This document shows, one piece after another, positions 40,541 through 51,806 of a DNA stretch of 64,000 nucleotides; the stretch's first letter is position 1; every line of letters starts with the position of its first letter. Under the pieces are notes generated by a model. The model was not told where the DNA came from. It was given only the letters and a program-made list of their open reading frames with translations, and did not search any database. The DNA is from Paenibacillus yonginensis (GTDB lineage Bacteria; Bacillota; Bacilli; Paenibacillales; Paenibacillaceae): assembly GCF_001685395.1 (NCBI RefSeq), contig NZ_CP014167.1:248001-312000 (forward strand), read 5' to 3'. A program made the translations under genes and the position numbers.

Positions 40541-40691
40541 GAAATGACATCCTCCTTGATTGACTTCATTTAAAATTTTGATAATACTATCATAACCGAG
40601 TTTGCTTCCAGAATAAACTTCGACAAATTTCGCGCTTTTTATGCTATGGTATAGCTATATTATTTGTAAAAGCAGGAATAGGAAGGAAGCT

Positions 40692-41762
40692 ATGATTGAG
40701 AAACTGATTAACAACTTTACGCTGCTGACAAGTTTTCTGTTTTTCGGCAATATGATCCGCTCCAGATATGTTAAGGATGCCCGGACAAACTTGATAGGGA
40801 TTCGTATGATCGAAGGTGGGATCCTGGGGATCTTTGGGGTAGTCCTTATTCATTTTTCTTTTCCTGTCACGGAATATGTAAGGGCGGATGCCCGTCAGCT
40901 GGCATTGCTGGTGTCTGTGTATCTGGGAGGCTGGCTGTCTGGAGTTTGTACACTGGTGGTCATGTCCGTTTACCGCCTGTTTTTTGTACATGGATTTAAC
41001 GGAACTTCGGTGATTGCCGCCGTCAACATATTTATTACATTTGGAATCGCAATCAGTTTAATCAGCAAAGGGAAATTGAAATTCAAGCGGTGGGCGGCCG
41101 CTCTGCTGTCAACGGACGTTCTGACGCTTGTTTCTTTATTTGTGCCGCTTAAAGGCAAAGCGCCTGTAGAGCTTGTTTATTTCGTCATTTTTTATTTGAT
41201 CAGCGGGTTGCTGCTTTATTTCATGATCCGTTATTTGAAGCTGACACATGTGATGATGCAGCGAATGAAAGAAGCCGCAGCGAGGGACCATCTCACTGGA
41301 CTTTATAACACCCGGTCATTGGAAGCCTATTTTGAGCACCGGTTGGAAAGCAGTGAAAATGTAAATCTTCCTTACTCCATGCTGGTTATCGACATTGACC
41401 ATTTCAAGGAAGTGAACGATACTTACGGTCATGCTGCGGGGGATGCTGTCCTTGTTCAGTTAGCGGAGGTGCTGAATGATTCGTTCCGTACGGGTGATTA
41501 TATCGCAAGGAAGGGCGGAGAAGAGTTTGTAGTTATCGTAGAGCGGTGCGGGAAGGATAAAATCGGTCATGTCGCGGAAAATATGAGAAAAAATGTGCAA
41601 AACACGCCTTTTATTCTCCCTGATGGGACGAGGCTTGCCCTGACGGTCTCCGTCGGGGCTGCTTCTTATCCTCAGACGGCATGCGGAGAGCTGTTTGAGC
41701 AAGCAGACCGGATGTTATATAAAGCCAAGAACCAGGGCCGCAATCAGGTCTGCATCAGTTAA
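40692..41762 (+). CDS. Diguanylate cyclase with 5TMR-LYT-type membrane domain
   Basis: Makes cyclic di-GMP. The 356-residue protein has about five to six N-terminal helices (about 10-190) of the 5TM-5TMR_LYT sensor type, then a GGDEF domain. The active-site GGEEF is at 275-279, and RTGD at 266-269, five residues ahead, is an inhibitory I-site, so product feedback is likely. [16 protein letters not shown] and [12 protein letters not shown] are present. The ATG at 40692 (AGGAAGGA upstream) is preferred over an in-frame TTG at 40641. The chemoreceptor gene follows after 38 nt. Confidence 0.92.
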
Positions 41763-41800
41763 ACCGGATTGCCGTTAGATGGGAGGAGGATCGCCTGGCT

Positions 41801-43720
41801 GTGCTGCTGCTGCCCAGTCTGTACATTGGTCTCAGCACGTATCGCTCGACAGGCAGCGAGCTGCAGAGCCAGCTTATGGACAGCGCAAATGAAAGCGTAA
41901 ACACAGTTAATGATATCGTAACGGGCACCTTGACGGCCAAATACAGTGATTTGGCTTATTATGCCAATTCTATCAGCGGAGCAGACGCGGAACGTGGAAC
42001 CTTGGGTTCCGGGCAGAACCTGCAGGATAGCTTAACTCAATACGTGAATACCCATTATGATGTGCTTGATATTTATATCGTCGGCGACAACGGAGTCAGC
42101 CGGCATGGAGCCCCGGAGGGGAAAACAGCCGATAACTTCCGCAAGGAGACGATTTATACGGATGCCATCAAGAATCCCGGCAAAACGATTGTATCGTCCG
42201 TATTCCAAACGGCCGCCGGCCAGAACTCGGTTTCCATCTCCCGCGGTTTGTCCGACGGTAAAGGAATTGTAGCGATGGATCTGAATCTGGAATCTCTGGC
42301 CGCGCTTACCGATTTGAAGGTGGGCAAAGAAGGATATGTCATTATGCTGGACGGCTCAAATCATTACATTGTCCATCCAGGTTATGATGACATAGGCCAA
42401 GAAGAAACCGCCGATTTTGTTCAGCTGATGAATACAGGAGACAGCGGACAATTTTCTTATCAGCTGGAGGGCTCGGACAGAAAGATGATCTTTGCGACCA
42501 ACCAGCTGACAGGCTGGAAGATCGGCGGCGTAATCTTTGACAAAGAAATTACGGGAGTCAGCCGGAGCATCGGTTTAACTACGCTGTGGGTGATCGTTTC
42601 TGCGGTTGTTCTTGGCGGTCTGCTGATCTTCTGGGTGATTCGCTCGATCCTGAAGCCGCTGGTGCAGTTAAAGGAGTCGACTGCCCGCATCGGACAAGGT
42701 TATTTGAATGAACGGCTGGAGCTGGCCAGAAGAGATGAGATTGGCGAGTTGGCCGAGAATTTTCAGCGGATGGTCGATAATCTCAAAGACACAATTGTAA
42801 TGGTTCGGGATACTTCCAGAAGTTTATCAGGGTCTGCATCGCAGCTGGCCGCTGGCGCCGATCAATCCCAATCGTCCATCACACAGGTTACAGAGGCTAT
42901 TCAGCAGGTTGCAAGCGGCGGGGAGAAGCAGCTGGCCAGCATGGAAGCCGGAGCGGCCAACGTCAATAATCTGGTGAACGAAGTGGCGGAAGTCGCCAAC
43001 GAAATTGGAGAAGTTCATCTTATGATGAACGTAACCTCCCAGCTGGCCCAGGAAGGCAATGAAGCTGTGGCGACTACAAACAGCAAAATGGATTCCATAC
43101 ATCTTCATGTAGAAGAACTGGATCGAGTGGTAAAAGGGTTAAGCAGCCGCACAGAAGAAATCGGCAGCATTGTAACGGTTATTGCCGGCATCGCTCAGCA
43201 GACTAATCTGCTGGCTCTAAACGCCTCAATTGAGGCGGCCAGAGCCGGGGAACAGGGGCGCGGGTTTGCTGTAGTTGCTACGGAGGTCCGGAAGCTCGCG
43301 GAGAACTCGGCGGGATTTGCCGATAAAATTCGTGAGCTGATTGAGAAGGTGACCGAAGAGATGACAGGCGCGCAGGCCTCGATGGAGCACGTGGCGGCTT
43401 CGGTGAGCCAAGGCATCGAGGCGGCCCAAACGTCCGAAACCGCGTTCAGCCATATTTTGATCACCGTTCAGGGGCTGGCGCAAAGTATCGAAGCTTCAGC
43501 CGACAAGCTGCAGCGAATGAAAGAAGAGGCGGGAAACGTCAATCAGGCGATCAGTCAGGTTCAGCAGCTTTCCAGAGAGAATGCCAGAAATACCGAAACG
43601 ATTTCGGCTTCTGCGGAAGAACAGCTTGCCGTAGCCCAGGAAGTGGCGGGATCAACAGAAGAATTGAAGAAGAAAGCGGAGGAACTGAACGAATTAATCA
43701 GCCGATTTACCATTAATTAA
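41801..43720 (+). CDS. Methyl-accepting chemotaxis protein with Cache-type sensor
   Basis: A chemoreceptor of 639 residues: extracellular dCache-like domain (about 20-245), second helix (about 258-280), HAMP, and a cytoplasmic signalling coiled coil with the conserved tip around [20 protein letters not shown] and [19 protein letters not shown]. The start is odd. GTG 41801, 11 nt after GGGAGGAGG, leaves only about 13 residues of the first helix ([10 protein letters not shown]) and no basic cytoplasmic end; an in-frame CTG at 41795 would add two residues. The 5' end may have been lost. It probably shares a transcript with the upstream diguanylate cyclase. Confidence 0.9.
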
Positions 43721-44464: not shown

Positions 44465-44670
44465 GGGTTTCTCCTCCTTCAAATATAGTCCAAAATGAAA
44501 CGGTTATTCCTTGAACATTTAATAAACGTCTGCCCCATTCCTGAACCAGGGAGGATTATCTATTTACCCCTCTGGTAAAATTTGATAATGTTAGTTTGTG
44601 TTTTATGAAGGAAAATAAGGAGAGACGGTGGACAACGCCTGATGAATATAACCAAGCTCAGGGGTGGCGA

Positions 44671-46584
44671 ATGAAGTATTTGTTAAAAGCAGTGGTGTTT
44701 ATTTTAGTTGCACTGATTATGGGTGCGGTTATTGTGCCGGCCGCAGATTGGAGCGACCAAGCCGGGGACAGCACCAAAATCAGCACCTGGCAAGTTTGGC
44801 AGGTCAACTCTTTAATACCGGATATGTCGGAACAGCAGCTTGAACAGGTCGGACAGTGGCTTCAGGCCGACGCTGCCCACCCGCTGCCTGCAGGAAGGCA
44901 AAGCAGCGGCCGTACGGAGTCGATGTGGATTCGGGTGACTTTGCCTGCGGCAACTGGGAATGCGGCCATCATTATCCGTAAACTTTATGGAGAACGGGTC
45001 AGAGTCCTGTATGATGACAAGGTGATTTACAGTGTGGATCACCCGAGCGGCCGTGATGCCAACAATCTGTTGCTGCCCGTTAAACCGGCTGATGCTCCCG
45101 GGCTTCAGACCATTTACATAGGTGTCTCTTCCAACAGCGGCAGAATCGGTCTGCATGAAGATGTGCGGACCGGAGCTTTTATACCTCTGCTTATTGATTT
45201 TGTTAAAAAGGATTTGTCCGATTTCGTGCTGGGAAGCGCCTTTATCTTTATTTCGGTCATTATGCTGCTATGCACATTGTTTCTGAATGAAGCTAATATC
45301 CGGGGCTGGCTGGCCTTGGCTGTGATCATTTTATGTATAGGCGTCCTCGTCATTACGTATTCGCCCTTTCTGTACACCTACTACGGACAATACGAAGCTT
45401 TCTATTATAACCTGTTTGATACAGCCCTCTTTGTGTTCCTGCCCGTGTTTATCTTTTATGTAGAGCAGATTTTTGATAAGGAAAAATATGTGGTAATTAT
45501 CCGGATCAGCCGGATTTTCCAGACGGTATATTCCCTGATTTGTTTTGCGCTGCTCCTGCTCAACCGTTTGACGGTATTCGGCATTCAGTCTACATATGAT
45601 GAAGTAACAGGTACCCTTCTTGGATATGTGATGATTGCCGAACTTGCTTTACTGGTGCTTTTTGCTGGCTGGAATGCTTTGAGAGGCAGCAAGGAGGGCA
45701 TTATTTTCACCATCGGGTTTGCGATCCTTGCGTTAACGGGTATAGGCGAGCTGATTTTCTATTATGCCAGCGGCCAGCAGTACCGGCTGGTGCTGTGGAA
45801 ATGGGGGGTGCTTTGTTTCGTCATTTCTCTCATCATTATTCTGGGCCGGAGATTCGCTCGAAATCATGAGCAGGTCGTGGAGTATTCCCGCAAACTGGAA
45901 ATGTTCAATAATGAACTGCAGCGTTCGGAGAAAATGGAAATTATAAGCGTGCTCGCCGCTTCCGTTGCTCACGAGGTCCGCAATCCGCTTCAGGTCACGC
46001 GGGGCTTCATCCAGCTGCTAAGCGAGAAACAGCAGAAGGGGCAGGACCGGGTTTATTTGGATCTGGCTCTTGAAGAACTGGATCGCGCTTCGGGAATTAT
46101 TACGGACTTTCTGACCTTCGCCAAGCCGGAAGGAAGCAAAATCCGCAAGCTGAATGTTAGCGAAGAGTTCAGGCATATCGAAGGGATTTTGCAGCCGATG
46201 GTCCATTTAACAGGCGGGAAAATTGCCGTAGATATTCCGTCTGATCTTAGCGTCATGGGGAGCTCCTCCAAATTTAAACAGGCCTGCATCAACATTATCA
46301 AGAACAGCATTGAATCCTTCCAGGGAGAAGGGGAGATTCTCGTTTGGGCTTACGAGGTTAACGCGCATGTATACATTCATATTAAGGATAATGGAGAGGG
46401 GATGACAGAAGAGGAAATGGGCCGACTGGGAGAGCCGTATTTCTCCAATAAAACAAAAGGAACCGGATTAGGACTGATGGTCACTTTCCGGATTATTGAG
46501 GCCATGGGGGGAACACTGAATTTCTCAAGCGAAAAAGGCAAAGGAACCGAAGCTGTGCTCCGGTTCCCGTCAGGCGGACCCTGA
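44671..46584 (+). CDS. Membrane sensor histidine kinase, 7TMR-DISM type
   Basis: A sensor kinase of about 637 residues: a first helix or signal anchor (KYLLKAVVFILVALIMGAVI), an extracellular domain of about 170 residues, seven membrane helices, a short coiled coil, then the HisKA box ASVAHEVRNPLQ (phospho-acceptor His434) and HATPase motifs (IIKNSIESF, DNGEGM, KGTGLGL). The H-box resembles Spo0-pathway kinases rather than ComP/DegS types. No response regulator adjoins it. The start is uncertain: the ATG at 44605 is in frame but lacks a ribosome site. It converges on the RiPP precursor gene with 37 nt between stops. Confidence 0.88.
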   Translation: MKYLLKAVVFILVALIMGAVIVPAADWSDQAGDSTKISTWQVWQVNSLIPDMSEQQLEQVGQWLQADAAHPLPAGRQSSGRTESMWIRVTLPAATGNAAIIIRKLYGERVRVLYDDKVIYSVDHPSGRDANNLLLPVKPADAPGLQTIYIGVSSNSGRIGLHEDVRTGAFIPLLIDFVKKDLSDFVLGSAFIFISVIMLLCTLFLNEANIRGWLALAVIILCIGVLVITYSPFLYTYYGQYEAFYYNLFDTALFVFLPVFIFYVEQIFDKEKYVVIIRISRIFQTVYSLICFALLLLNRLTVFGIQSTYDEVTGTLLGYVMIAELALLVLFAGWNALRGSKEGIIFTIGFAILALTGIGELIFYYASGQQYRLVLWKWGVLCFVISLIIILGRRFARNHEQVVEYSRKLEMFNNELQRSEKMEIISVLAASVAHEVRNPLQVTRGFIQLLSEKQQKGQDRVYLDLALEELDRASGIITDFLTFAKPEGSKIRKLNVSEEFRHIEGILQPMVHLTGGKIAVDIPSDLSVMGSSSKFKQACINIIKNSIESFQGEGEILVWAYEVNAHVYIHIKDNGEGMTEEEMGRLGEPYFSNKTKGTGLGLMVTFRIIEAMGGTLNFSSEKGKGTEAVLRFPSGGP

Positions 46585-46621: not shown

Positions 46622-46867
46622 TTAAGGGTTCCACATGGCTTGCGGCTGGACATTAGCTTCAAGCACAGAAGAAGGGTTTGGAGGAAGCACCAGATAAAAC
46701 TCGTCGGCGTTCTCCTCAACGGTGCGGACTTTAATGTGATCCGGAAGGGAAATACCTAAAAATTCCTGAATAGTTCCTTTCGGATCGGACAATAACTTGC
46801 TTTTGAAAGTAGGATCTTGCCAGGCCTTCTGAATAAGCTGAGATTGAAGAAGAGCACCAGTTGACAT
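46622..46867 (-). CDS. RiPP precursor peptide with NHLP (nitrile-hydratase-like) leader
   Basis: An 81-residue peptide. Residues 10-65 match the NHLP leader pattern closely: LIQKAWQDPTFKSKLLSDPK, then GTIQEFLGISLPDHIKV and EFYLVLPPNP. Such leaders, related to nitrile hydratase alpha subunits, precede the core of many ribosomal natural products. The presumed core is the 16-residue tail SSVLEANVQPQAMWNP, with Trp79 third from the end and no Cys, Ser-Thr cluster or GG site. AAAGGGTG precedes the ATG. The class I isoprenoid enzyme gene lies 80 nt upstream on the same strand. Maturation and export genes are absent. Confidence 0.85.
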   Translation of the reverse strand: MSTGALLQSQLIQKAWQDPTFKSKLLSDPKGTIQEFLGISLPDHIKVRTVEENADEFYLVLPPNPSSVLEANVQPQAMWNP

Positions 46868-46947: not shown

Positions 46948-47898
46948 TCATTTGACCTCGTTTTTTTTCTCCCATTTAGACAGAAAATAAGACAATCCTC
47001 CAGCTTCCAGCAGCTTTTTCTCCGCTTCGATTTGAGAGGCTCCCTGCTGCAGATTGTCCAGCAGAAAATAGTAGAAAGCATAGAGCTCCGGAACTAATGA
47101 CCGGATCTGACTTACCGTGGGTTCCCATAAAGCTGCACGCTCTGCAAAACCGGACAAAACCCCATAGGTATACAGCGCTTCGCGGATGTTCTCCTTTGAC
47201 AGCGTTTGAGAAGCAGGCAATCCCAGCTTGCTGCGGGATAAAGCAATCAGACTGTTATAAGAGCTTTCCTCCAGATCCTTCTCCCAATCCTCCCAGTCAT
47301 CCAGCATTTGCAGCACTACCAGCGTTTGGTCGACCGCCTGTTCGGTTGCGGGGATGTGTTCCTTGCTGCCCGTGTTCAGAAGCAGGCCAGTTGCGGCCAG
47401 CTTGACCAGAGAAGCTTTGTGGCCCATTCTGACCGGATTCTGGTGGAACCAATCCTGCTCGTTCTCCCCGCTTACAGCTTCGGCCCATTGGAACAAATAA
47501 CGTTTATAAAACCTCCAGAAATCCGTGGCTGCCGGGAAAATTTCCGCATAAAGCCCATGAAACTCCTCATGCAGCAGAGCAGACAGCGGTAGAACCGTAT
47601 GGAGTTCGGTTCCAGGCTTGTCCATCGCCTCATCCTGCAGATGAAAGGCCATCATGCCGAAAATATTAGCCAGGCATAGATGCCTGCTGAGACGGCGGTC
47701 CTGCCCTGCGGCGGGTTCCATCCAGAAGGGCAGCAGAAAGCAGATATAGTTGGTAGGTACCTCCCGCCTGGTTATATCAAAGCCTTCCAAATACCGCAGA
47801 GCTTGTCCCTCAAAAGGGCTGTTCCACGAGCGGATCCGCCTGCCGGCCTCTCCGAACACCACTTTCAAATCCTGTTCATAACGTTTGTACCATTCCAT
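46948..47898 (-). CDS. Class I isoprenoid synthase-fold enzyme (possible peptide prenyltransferase)
   Basis: A 316-residue all-helical protein. Two acidic motifs fit the class I isoprenoid fold: LQDEAMD (Asp89, Glu90, Asp93) as a DDxxD variant, and LDDWEDWEKDLEESSYNSLI (Asp200-Asp208) as the second metal site, which also recalls the NSE motif of terpene synthases. Lys/Arg residues for diphosphate are scattered. It is not a clear match to polyprenyl synthetases, squalene synthases or YtpB. Placed ahead of a small precursor with a C-terminal Trp, it occupies the position of ComQ. GGGAGGT precedes the ATG. Could instead be a terpene synthase. Confidence 0.7.
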   Translation of the reverse strand: MEWYKRYEQDLKVVFGEAGRRIRSWNSPFEGQALRYLEGFDITRREVPTNYICFLLPFWMEPAAGQDRRLSRHLCLANIFGMMAFHLQDEAMDKPGTELHTVLPLSALLHEEFHGLYAEIFPAATDFWRFYKRYLFQWAEAVSGENEQDWFHQNPVRMGHKASLVKLAATGLLLNTGSKEHIPATEQAVDQTLVVLQMLDDWEDWEKDLEESSYNSLIALSRSKLGLPASQTLSKENIREALYTYGVLSGFAERAALWEPTVSQIRSLVPELYAFYYFLLDNLQQGASQIEAEKKLLEAGGLSYFLSKWEKKNEVK

Positions 47899-50497: not shown

Positions 50498-51806
50498 AAA
50501 AGGGACTTCACCCCAACTTGGAGAAGTTTTCAAGTGACCAAACCCAAAAACCTCAAGGATGGAGGAAGTCACTTTGTATATTCTCCAAGAATGTCTGTTT
50601 TCCTTCGAAGAACTTTTAAAAATTCAACCCAAGGAGAGATTGCCGATCTTCTTCAGCTCTCTCGATCTGAGACCGTATGCCAAGGAACTGAGAAGCCGTT
50701 CACCCCGAGGCGCTGAGGGATACTGCAGACAAGGTATTCTACGAGCACTCTTGGCTGCGCCGCTTGAAGGAATAAGTACCTTTTCAGGGTTGCATAAGCG
50801 TTTGGATACGGATCTCCGGTTTCGTTATCAGTGTGGTCTTCCGCTGGATCGAGAAGCTCCTTCCATATCCACATTAAGCCGAGTTTTCTCAGAACTGACG
50901 AGAAAGGACTTGGCAAAACGGCTTTTTGAGGATTTGGTCACACGCTGTCAGCAGGAAGGTATCATAGAAGGCAGTAACGTCGCCATAGACAGCGCCGCTC
51001 TCCGCGCTTACGAGAAAAAGCAGCCCAAACGCAAAAGCGAGCAAACGGGTAATGCGAACTGGGGCGCAAAAATTGATTCCTTCGGCAATAAAATCACATG
51101 GTTTGGTTACAAAATTCATCTGGCGGTCGATACGAAAAGTGAATTGCCGATCGCCTTGGAAGTAACGCCGGCGCATGTCAATGATGGAGAAATGGCGCCG
51201 GGCCTGATCGAGAAAACAGCGTCCAGGACGAGCACACGATTTTTCATACTCGATGCGGGCTACGACCAAATGAAAGTTTATGAGGCCGCCCGCAACGTCA
51301 AGGCACAAGCCATCATTCCCCTTAATCTTCGGGGGGAGAAGGAACCGCCTGCTGGCATGACCTCGAACGGAACACCGTGCTGTTCCATGGGTTATGCGAT
51401 GACATACTGGGGAGTTGACGGCGATATGCATAAATTTCGCTGCCCGCATGCCACGGGTAAAGTCGACTGTCCGCTTGGCATGGCTGCCTGCTCGTCTTCA
51501 AACTATGGAATGGTCGTCAAAGTAAATGCGAAGGATGATCTCCGGCGATACAGCATCCCTCATCGGGATACAAAGCGTTGGAAGGAACTTTACAATGAAC
51601 GAACCAGCGTAGAACGCTGCAACTCCCGATTGAAAACCTATTTGACGGCAGACGCCGCACATGTCCGGGGCATTCAGAAAGTCACAACTCACCAGTATTT
51701 GAATGCCATTGTTCTGCTTGCATCTGCGCTCGCCGTTTCTCATCATTCAAAACGGGCTGCCGCTTAAAAAACGAGCTGTTCTAAAATTCTGCAAGTCTGC
51801 CCTTTT
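50498..51806. mobile_element. Insertion sequence, about 1.3 kb, DDE transposase
   Basis: One transposase gene bounded by imperfect inverted ends. Left AAAAGGG (50498-50504) and right CCCTTTT (51800-51806); further in, ACTTGGAGAAGTTTT on the left matches ACTTGCAGAATTTT on the right (reverse complement), offset by about 8 bp. I could not find a clear target duplication, so the exact ends are approximate. Confidence 0.6.
50574..51767 (+). CDS. IS transposase, DDE type (IS1182/IS5-like)
   Basis: About 397 residues. The N-terminus (FSSLDLRPYAKELRSRSPRG, RQGILRALLAAPLEGISTFS) is the DUF772-type helical domain, followed by an RNase-H-like DDE core: VAIDSAALRA (Asp), FFILDAGYDQMKV (Asp) and ERTSVERCNSRLKTYL (Glu). 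A cysteine- and histidine-bearing insertion (HKFRCPHATGKVDCPLGMAA) precedes the last motif. The frame is intact, so the element may be active. I chose TTG 50574 because GGAGG stands 8 nt upstream; the in-frame ATG at 50559 has no such site. Confidence 0.85.
   Translation: MYILQECLFSFEELLKIQPKERLPIFFSSLDLRPYAKELRSRSPRGAEGYCRQGILRALLAAPLEGISTFSGLHKRLDTDLRFRYQCGLPLDREAPSISTLSRVFSELTRKDLAKRLFEDLVTRCQQEGIIEGSNVAIDSAALRAYEKKQPKRKSEQTGNANWGAKIDSFGNKITWFGYKIHLAVDTKSELPIALEVTPAHVNDGEMAPGLIEKTASRTSTRFFILDAGYDQMKVYEAARNVKAQAIIPLNLRGEKEPPAGMTSNGTPCCSMGYAMTYWGVDGDMHKFRCPHATGKVDCPLGMAACSSSNYGMVVKVNAKDDLRRYSIPHRDTKRWKELYNERTSVERCNSRLKTYLTADAAHVRGIQKVTTHQYLNAIVLLASALAVSHHSKRAAA

Follow-up and report, generated by a model that had tools for sequence, protein, structure and literature searches.

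The short gene on the reverse strand at positions 46622..46867 of the 64,000-nucleotide stretch of Paenibacillus yonginensis DNA analysed here (the window) raises the question of whether the tryptophan close to the end of its 81-residue product is the target of a prenyltransferase and, if so, what the modified peptide would be for. The host genome, a single contig of 4.99 Mb, has its nearest named relatives in Paenibacillus and Fontibacillus. In a profile search the product matched TIGR03793 (leader_NHLP, the NHLP leader peptide family RiPP precursor) with 66.6 bits and E 1.3e-18, the cut-off being 50.9 bits, and the gene is classed as palX-like. The leader domain (residues 7-69; 46661..46849, reverse strand), aligned with positions 5-66 of the 77 in the profile, is shared with the NHLP/proteusin RiPP precursors, from which PalX differs in that the leader does not end in Gly-Gly, and no GG is found anywhere in the precursor. 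A Gly-Gly end is usual in exported NHLP precursors. The cassette described below contains no exporter or protease gene, and, among the neighbours scanned, no immunity, ABC exporter, C39 peptidase or NHLM exporter gene lies beside it. A Pfam search of PalX gave no match to the ComX family (PF05952), the top matches being NHase_alpha and lantibiotic-like leaders.

The precursor ends in ...LPPNPSSVLEANVQPQAMWNP, the range 46622-46690 corresponding to residues 60-81 plus the stop codon. Trp79, the predicted prenyl acceptor, is third from the C-terminus, as the earlier note on this DNA had it, with its codon at 46631..46633 (reverse strand) followed by the two-residue tail Asn-Pro (46625..46630), which varies among relatives, and the stop. 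It is also, as proposed there, the only obvious nucleophilic aromatic of the core, the tail having no Tyr, His or Cys and the second Trp of the precursor, the invariant Trp16, belonging to the leader part. The accompanying statement that the tail has neither Cys nor lanthionine-type residues is correct for Cys but inexact for the latter, given the two Ser at positions 66-67. Serine is usable in lanthionine chemistry; both residues are positioned before the core predicted from the Paenibacillus alvei cleavage site.

A strictly conserved Trp amid variable neighbours had been set beforehand as the test of a modified signal peptide, and this is what the alignment of 96 distinct homologues revealed. 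Trp79 is invariant in 96/96 (entropy 0), the 13 positions ahead of it have a mean entropy of 2.84 bits, and leader residues 7-65 have one of 1.21 bits in the same alignment. In all 107 distinct precursors a Trp lies at most seven residues from the C-terminus. As a control, the weakest-scoring matches in 23 genomes were checked for palQ or the kinase gene nearby: low-scoring PalX-like genes that have palQ, the kinase gene or both in the vicinity keep the Trp at or near the end, and NHLP-like proteins encoded at loci with neither (six loci, four genomes) have no such Trp end. Precursors that had kept the leader and lost the Trp, the outcome regarded in advance as contrary, were not encountered among those with partner genes.

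The adjoining gene (46948..47898, reverse strand) encodes a 316-residue protein that synteny, residues and predicted fold indicate to be a trans-isoprenyl-synthase-like Trp prenyltransferase of the PalQ type. In P. alvei, PalQ is an isoprene-synthase-like enzyme, clustered with the NHLP precursor PalX and the kinase PalP, that prenylates the PalX Trp in vitro at the indole C3 to give a tricyclic pyrroloindole (PMC10853753). The roles of D89 and D93 (FARM), D200 and D204 (SARM) and Q197 (Trp recognition) were assigned for that enzyme (PMC10853753), and every one of these residues is present under identical numbering in the window protein, in which the first Asp-rich motif, D89-E-A-M-D93, is encoded at 47620..47634, and Q197 with the second, D200/D204, at 47287..47310 (both reverse strand). 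D89 and D93 are invariant in 91/91 PalQ sequences, as are Q197, D200, D201 and D204. As judged from synteny and residues, the protein is a PalQ orthologue. Its predicted model (pLDDT 93.8) finds its nearest solved folds among polyprenyl and farnesyl diphosphate synthases (best TM approx. 0.7, Foldseek E approx. 2e-3), the Trp farnesyltransferase Ord1 being also matched, lower in the Foldseek list. At the level of sequence, NCBIfam gave no match and Pfam none above the cut-off, and a search for solved homologues returned none that was significant. Weak matches to DUF5685 (PF18937), possibly a distant relative, were observed in 18 of 41 PalQ members. The proposal that Trp79 is a prenyltransferase target is supported by the conservation of the Trp and by an adjoining PalQ orthologue with all the named catalytic residues in place, and the chemistry predicted for the window cassette is well supported.

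What was found in the window (an NHLP precursor gene directly after the prenyltransferase gene, the catalytic residues, the conserved Trp and a kinase gene) coincides with the PalX/PalQ/PalP cluster of P. alvei (Miyata, Ito and Fujinami 2023, PMC10853753), with which it shares the three genes, the leader and the active-site numbering. The window cassette belongs to this published kind and, since the kinase completes the cluster, the kind is one already known. In cell lysate P. alvei PalX is cleaved at T72|D73 to yield DNVRRFFW (PMC10853753). The distance from the PNP motif to the end of the Trp is 14 residues in both proteins and, by aligning T72|D73 with residue 71/72 of the window precursor, the core is predicted to be N72-P81, NVQPQAMWNP (46625..46654, reverse strand). 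Up to the Trp the two cores are of matching length; apart from the Trp itself they are unrelated, and the Trp is the last residue in P. alvei PalX and third from the end here.

The true relative of the precursor is PalX, not ComX. The likeness to ComQXPA of Bacillus subtilis is nevertheless extensive: both comprise a precursor with a near-terminal Trp, an isoprenyl-synthase-like Trp prenyltransferase and a membrane kinase, with enzyme, peptide and sensor all diverging fast, and ComX of strain 168 also ends in W plus two residues. However, ComX has no NHLP leader and ComQ no second Asp-rich motif, both of which are present in the window proteins, and ComQXPA consists of four genes on one strand with ComA adjacent, whereas the window kinase gene is on the opposite strand and no ComA is adjacent. 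Membership in ComQXPA was considered and is ruled out by the leader, the kinase type, the gene order and the missing ComA.

The residues behind the Trp are where these data depart from published work. P. alvei PalQ leaves peptides with Ala added after the Trp unmodified, the role of the kinase being outside the scope of that study (PMC10853753), and a 2026 review repeats the terminal-Trp requirement, adding that Gly around an internal Trp gives weak activity (PMC13290415). The window precursor, ending in WNP, does not have the C-terminal Trp of P. alvei PalX, and half of the distinct precursors carry 1-6 residues after the Trp despite the reported requirement (0 residues in 54, 1 in 32 and 2-6 in 21 of the 107), so that, with 53/107 extended, a C-terminal Trp does not define the family. 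The W-plus-two spacing of ComX 168, to which the earlier note had drawn attention, is present here but is not a conserved property, relatives having 0-6 residues in its place; with a P. alvei enzyme inactive on peptides extended past the Trp, it poses a puzzle instead of lending straightforward support. Among tails of at least two residues the first residue is Gly in 16/21, Asn in 4/21 and Pro in 1/21, and Gly occurs in only 2/32 of the one-residue tails (Fisher 1.6e-7, uncorrected for kinship). Close relatives differ by a Gly inserted directly behind the Trp, ahead of an unchanged last residue (WD/WGD, WE/WGE), even where the PalQ proteins are near-identical (L054, WD; L058, WGD). On the PalQ tree, 7 changes between no tail and a tail of at least one residue are needed, at least 5 of them forced by well-supported branches. 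We read this as indicating that PalQ of these lineages probably takes a slightly internal Trp, as does ComQ, for which the Trp may be second to fourth from the end (PMC5331326).

Since the P. alvei enzyme rejects Ala behind the Trp, the tail may need trimming first: a housekeeping carboxypeptidase would remove the two residues after Trp79, PalQ would act on a C-terminal Trp and the tail would reflect drift of the stop codon. Such a route, which we consider possible though doubtful, finds a parallel in ComX of B. subtilis natto, from which C-terminal residues are lost in maturation (PMC5331326), and agrees with the shifts in tail length between close relatives, the nearest kin of the window PalX ending in NS and NSDSVK rather than NP. 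The tails are, however, non-random, with the excess of first-position Gly and the inserted Gly in close pairs described above, some PalQ activity is restored by Gly near an internal Trp, and the tolerance of ComQ offers a precedent for direct modification. Comparison of PalQ homologues with the tail lengths of their precursors yielded no single residue that explains a terminal/internal switch. K39 of P. alvei PalQ, a candidate determinant of terminal specificity, was discarded because residue 39 does not track tail length; positions 47, 110 and 114 are weak candidates for tracking it across separate origins, none being decisive.

The third gene (44605..46584, forward strand; ATG at 44605, stop ending at 46584) is convergent with palX and encodes a PalP-like sensor histidine kinase, with Pfam matches to HisKA and HATPase_c and a weak one to 7TMR-DISM_7TM. 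Its layout is that of a TM helix, an extracellular beta domain, seven TM helices, HisKA and HATPase; in a predicted model of middling quality (pLDDT 76) the beta domain spans residues 54-190 and is followed by a TM bundle. It is a PF00512 HisKA kinase, not one of the ComP type (PF07730), and it is an orphan, no response-regulator gene being found beside it among the neighbours scanned. The H-box HEVRNPLQVTRGFIQL (45970..46017, forward strand) contains the specificity residues QVGFQL, the pattern QVGFQ[LVI] being present in 92/94 PalP sequences; the six positions (H+7, +8, +11, +12, +14 and +15) were mapped by us from the KinA H-box. The corresponding residues of B. subtilis KinA-KinE are TAGFQL, TVGFQL, TSGFQI, TGGFQL and TAGFQL (PMC6136694). 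Against this sporulation pattern, T[AVSG]GFQ[LI], PalP matches KinB at five of six positions, the first being Gln instead of Thr. PalP is like KinA-KinE also in being an orphan and in its H-box of the form HE[IV]RNPL..GF.QL, and unlike them in its 7TMR-DISM-like sensor and its location at a RiPP locus. An H-box could be read in 27 further HisKA kinases of the genome; five of these share the GF.QL pattern, and all five have H-boxes of the sporulation type. KinA-E, Spo0F, Spo0B and Spo0A are present in more than 99% of the Paenibacillus genomes surveyed (PMC12826061), and we infer that PalP would feed the Spo0F/Spo0B/Spo0A phosphorelay. In the literature searched, nothing relevant on quorum sensing or 7TMR kinases tied to the palX locus was found beyond the PalQ papers.

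The distribution of the cassette bears on whether PalP is the receptor. A PalX homologue is present in 40/40 genomes of the genus, near-universally as a single copy, and in approx. 250 of 295 genomes of the family (255 at E 1e-4, four of which contain only other NHLP-like proteins); PalQ was found in 91/149 sampled genomes of the order, across four families. In nearly all of approx. 95 loci palQ lies upstream of palX on the same strand and the kinase gene is convergent, the cassette being kept as a unit though the flanking genes differ. With respect to the sister species (L044), identity is 76-86% for the flanking genes, 85% for the kinase domain and 88% for the PalX leader, but only 57% for PalQ and 68% for the kinase sensor, and the same trend was obtained across 80 loci (3,160 locus pairs). 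Fast divergence of enzyme, core and kinase sensor against slow divergence of leader, kinase domain and flanking genes suggests a ligand and its receptor, for which such a pattern would be expected. The sensor part of this pattern is not specific, faster divergence of the sensor than of the kinase domain being general among kinases. In three related genomes (L125:1039-6863, L134:1031-6852 and L130:1835-6225) two convergent palX-kinase pairs share one palQ, each duplicated palX facing its own kinase gene, an arrangement that separate receptors for the two peptides would predict. One palQ and one kinase gene at L133:712-5171 are shared by a tandem array of five palX genes, each with a core of its own (NVRKYTWV, NVRKFVWI, NVRKYNWL, NVRKYVWF and EAEPFIWT); those beginning with NVRK are similar to the P. 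alvei core DNVRRFFW, except that one residue follows the Trp.

The kinase could also be a conserved neighbour with no part in sensing the PalX product, which would then act elsewhere. The kinase gene is on the opposite strand and in a separate transcript, at three loci (L112, L121 and L129) palQ and palX, with a terminal Trp, have no PalP-type kinase gene within approx. 3 kb, and co-divergence of sensor and core with the kinase domain controlled for is modest, at a partial r of 0.38, with kinship as a confounder. Against these points, adjacency persists family-wide while the flanking genes change and palX and kinase genes duplicate one-to-one, so that we regard a bystander role as unlikely. 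A prenylated antimicrobial peptide, with a kinase that would only sense envelope stress or the product for self-protection, is an improbable product of the cassette even if membrane-active peptides prenylated with PalQ gain potency (PMC13290415) and NHLP leaders are common on bacteriocin-like RiPPs, in view of the lack of adjacent immunity, ABC exporter and C39 peptidase genes, a leader with no Gly-Gly site, a near-universal single copy in the genus (40/40) that fits a core regulator, the sporulation-type specificity residues of PalP and the joint duplication of palX and kinase genes.

An invariant Trp amid variable surroundings, an adjacent prenyltransferase and a sensor kinase are together most likely to represent a ComX-like cell-to-cell signal that is widespread in this group of spore formers, and palQ-palX-palP is, in our judgement, quite probably a ComX-like prenylated-pheromone cassette feeding the sporulation phosphorelay. 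As a pheromone precursor, PalX would dock on PalQ through its NHLP leader and the enzyme, which in this lineage would accept a Trp followed by one or a few residues, would place a prenyl group on the indole C3 of Trp79 with formation of the tricyclic pyrroloindole, the donors taken by P. alvei PalQ ranging from C5 to C15 (PMC10853753). Cleavage near residue 71/72 would release a short lipidated peptide, predicted as NVQPQAMW(prenyl)NP, that would exit the cell and be sensed by the extracellular/7-TM part of PalP, with transfer of phosphate into the Spo0F/Spo0B/Spo0A relay. The sequence-based case for the window consists of leader class, invariant Trp, active-site identity, synteny, kinase type and divergence pattern; prenylation, ring structure and leader cleavage in lysate come from experiments on P. 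alvei (PMC10853753). Modification with the tail on, export, recognition by PalP and transfer to Spo0F are what we infer for the window peptide. The non-terminal Trp, the assignment of a candidate receptor and the link to the phosphorelay go beyond published work.

PalQ is under development as a tool for peptide lipidation at a C-terminal Trp and has been described as strictly terminal; its natural relatives, whose precursors extend 0 to 6 residues past the Trp, are ready enzymes with which to probe, and perhaps lift, this limit. Should PalP prove to be the receptor, Paenibacillaceae would have in this cluster a density signal for sporulation, and spore formers a second, independently assembled example of ComX-like signalling; no quorum-sensing peptide described at the palX locus in this family was found in the literature searched. 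On a broader reading our confidence is evenly divided: a prenylated-Trp pheromone may be a core trait shared by Paenibacillaceae and related families, with many lineage-specific signal and receptor types conveying density to the sporulation phosphorelay, and prenyltransferases that would have switched repeatedly between C-terminal and internal Trp.

Some minor observations complete the description of the region and of the loci compared. A possible terminator of the palQ-palX transcript (46542..46568, reverse strand; 12-pair stem and T-rich tail) sits within the 3' end of the kinase gene, the count of terminator-like sites in the region being not above chance. Upstream of the kinase gene (window 40641-43720) there are genes for a GGDEF protein with a 5TMR-LYT sensor and then a dCache chemoreceptor, and approx. 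2.7 kb beyond palQ (50559-51767) one for an IS-type DDE transposase (DDE_Tnp_1, DUF772). In Flavobacterium tiangeerense (L077:902-6455) tandem NHLP-type precursors, most of them with Gly-Gly sites, are unrelated to the PalX group. A search of 19 genomes of one genus did not turn up the P. alvei core pattern; at L107:2990-3277, a P. alvei-like palX with the core DNVRRF shows an apparent frameshift within a run of T immediately ahead of the Trp codon.
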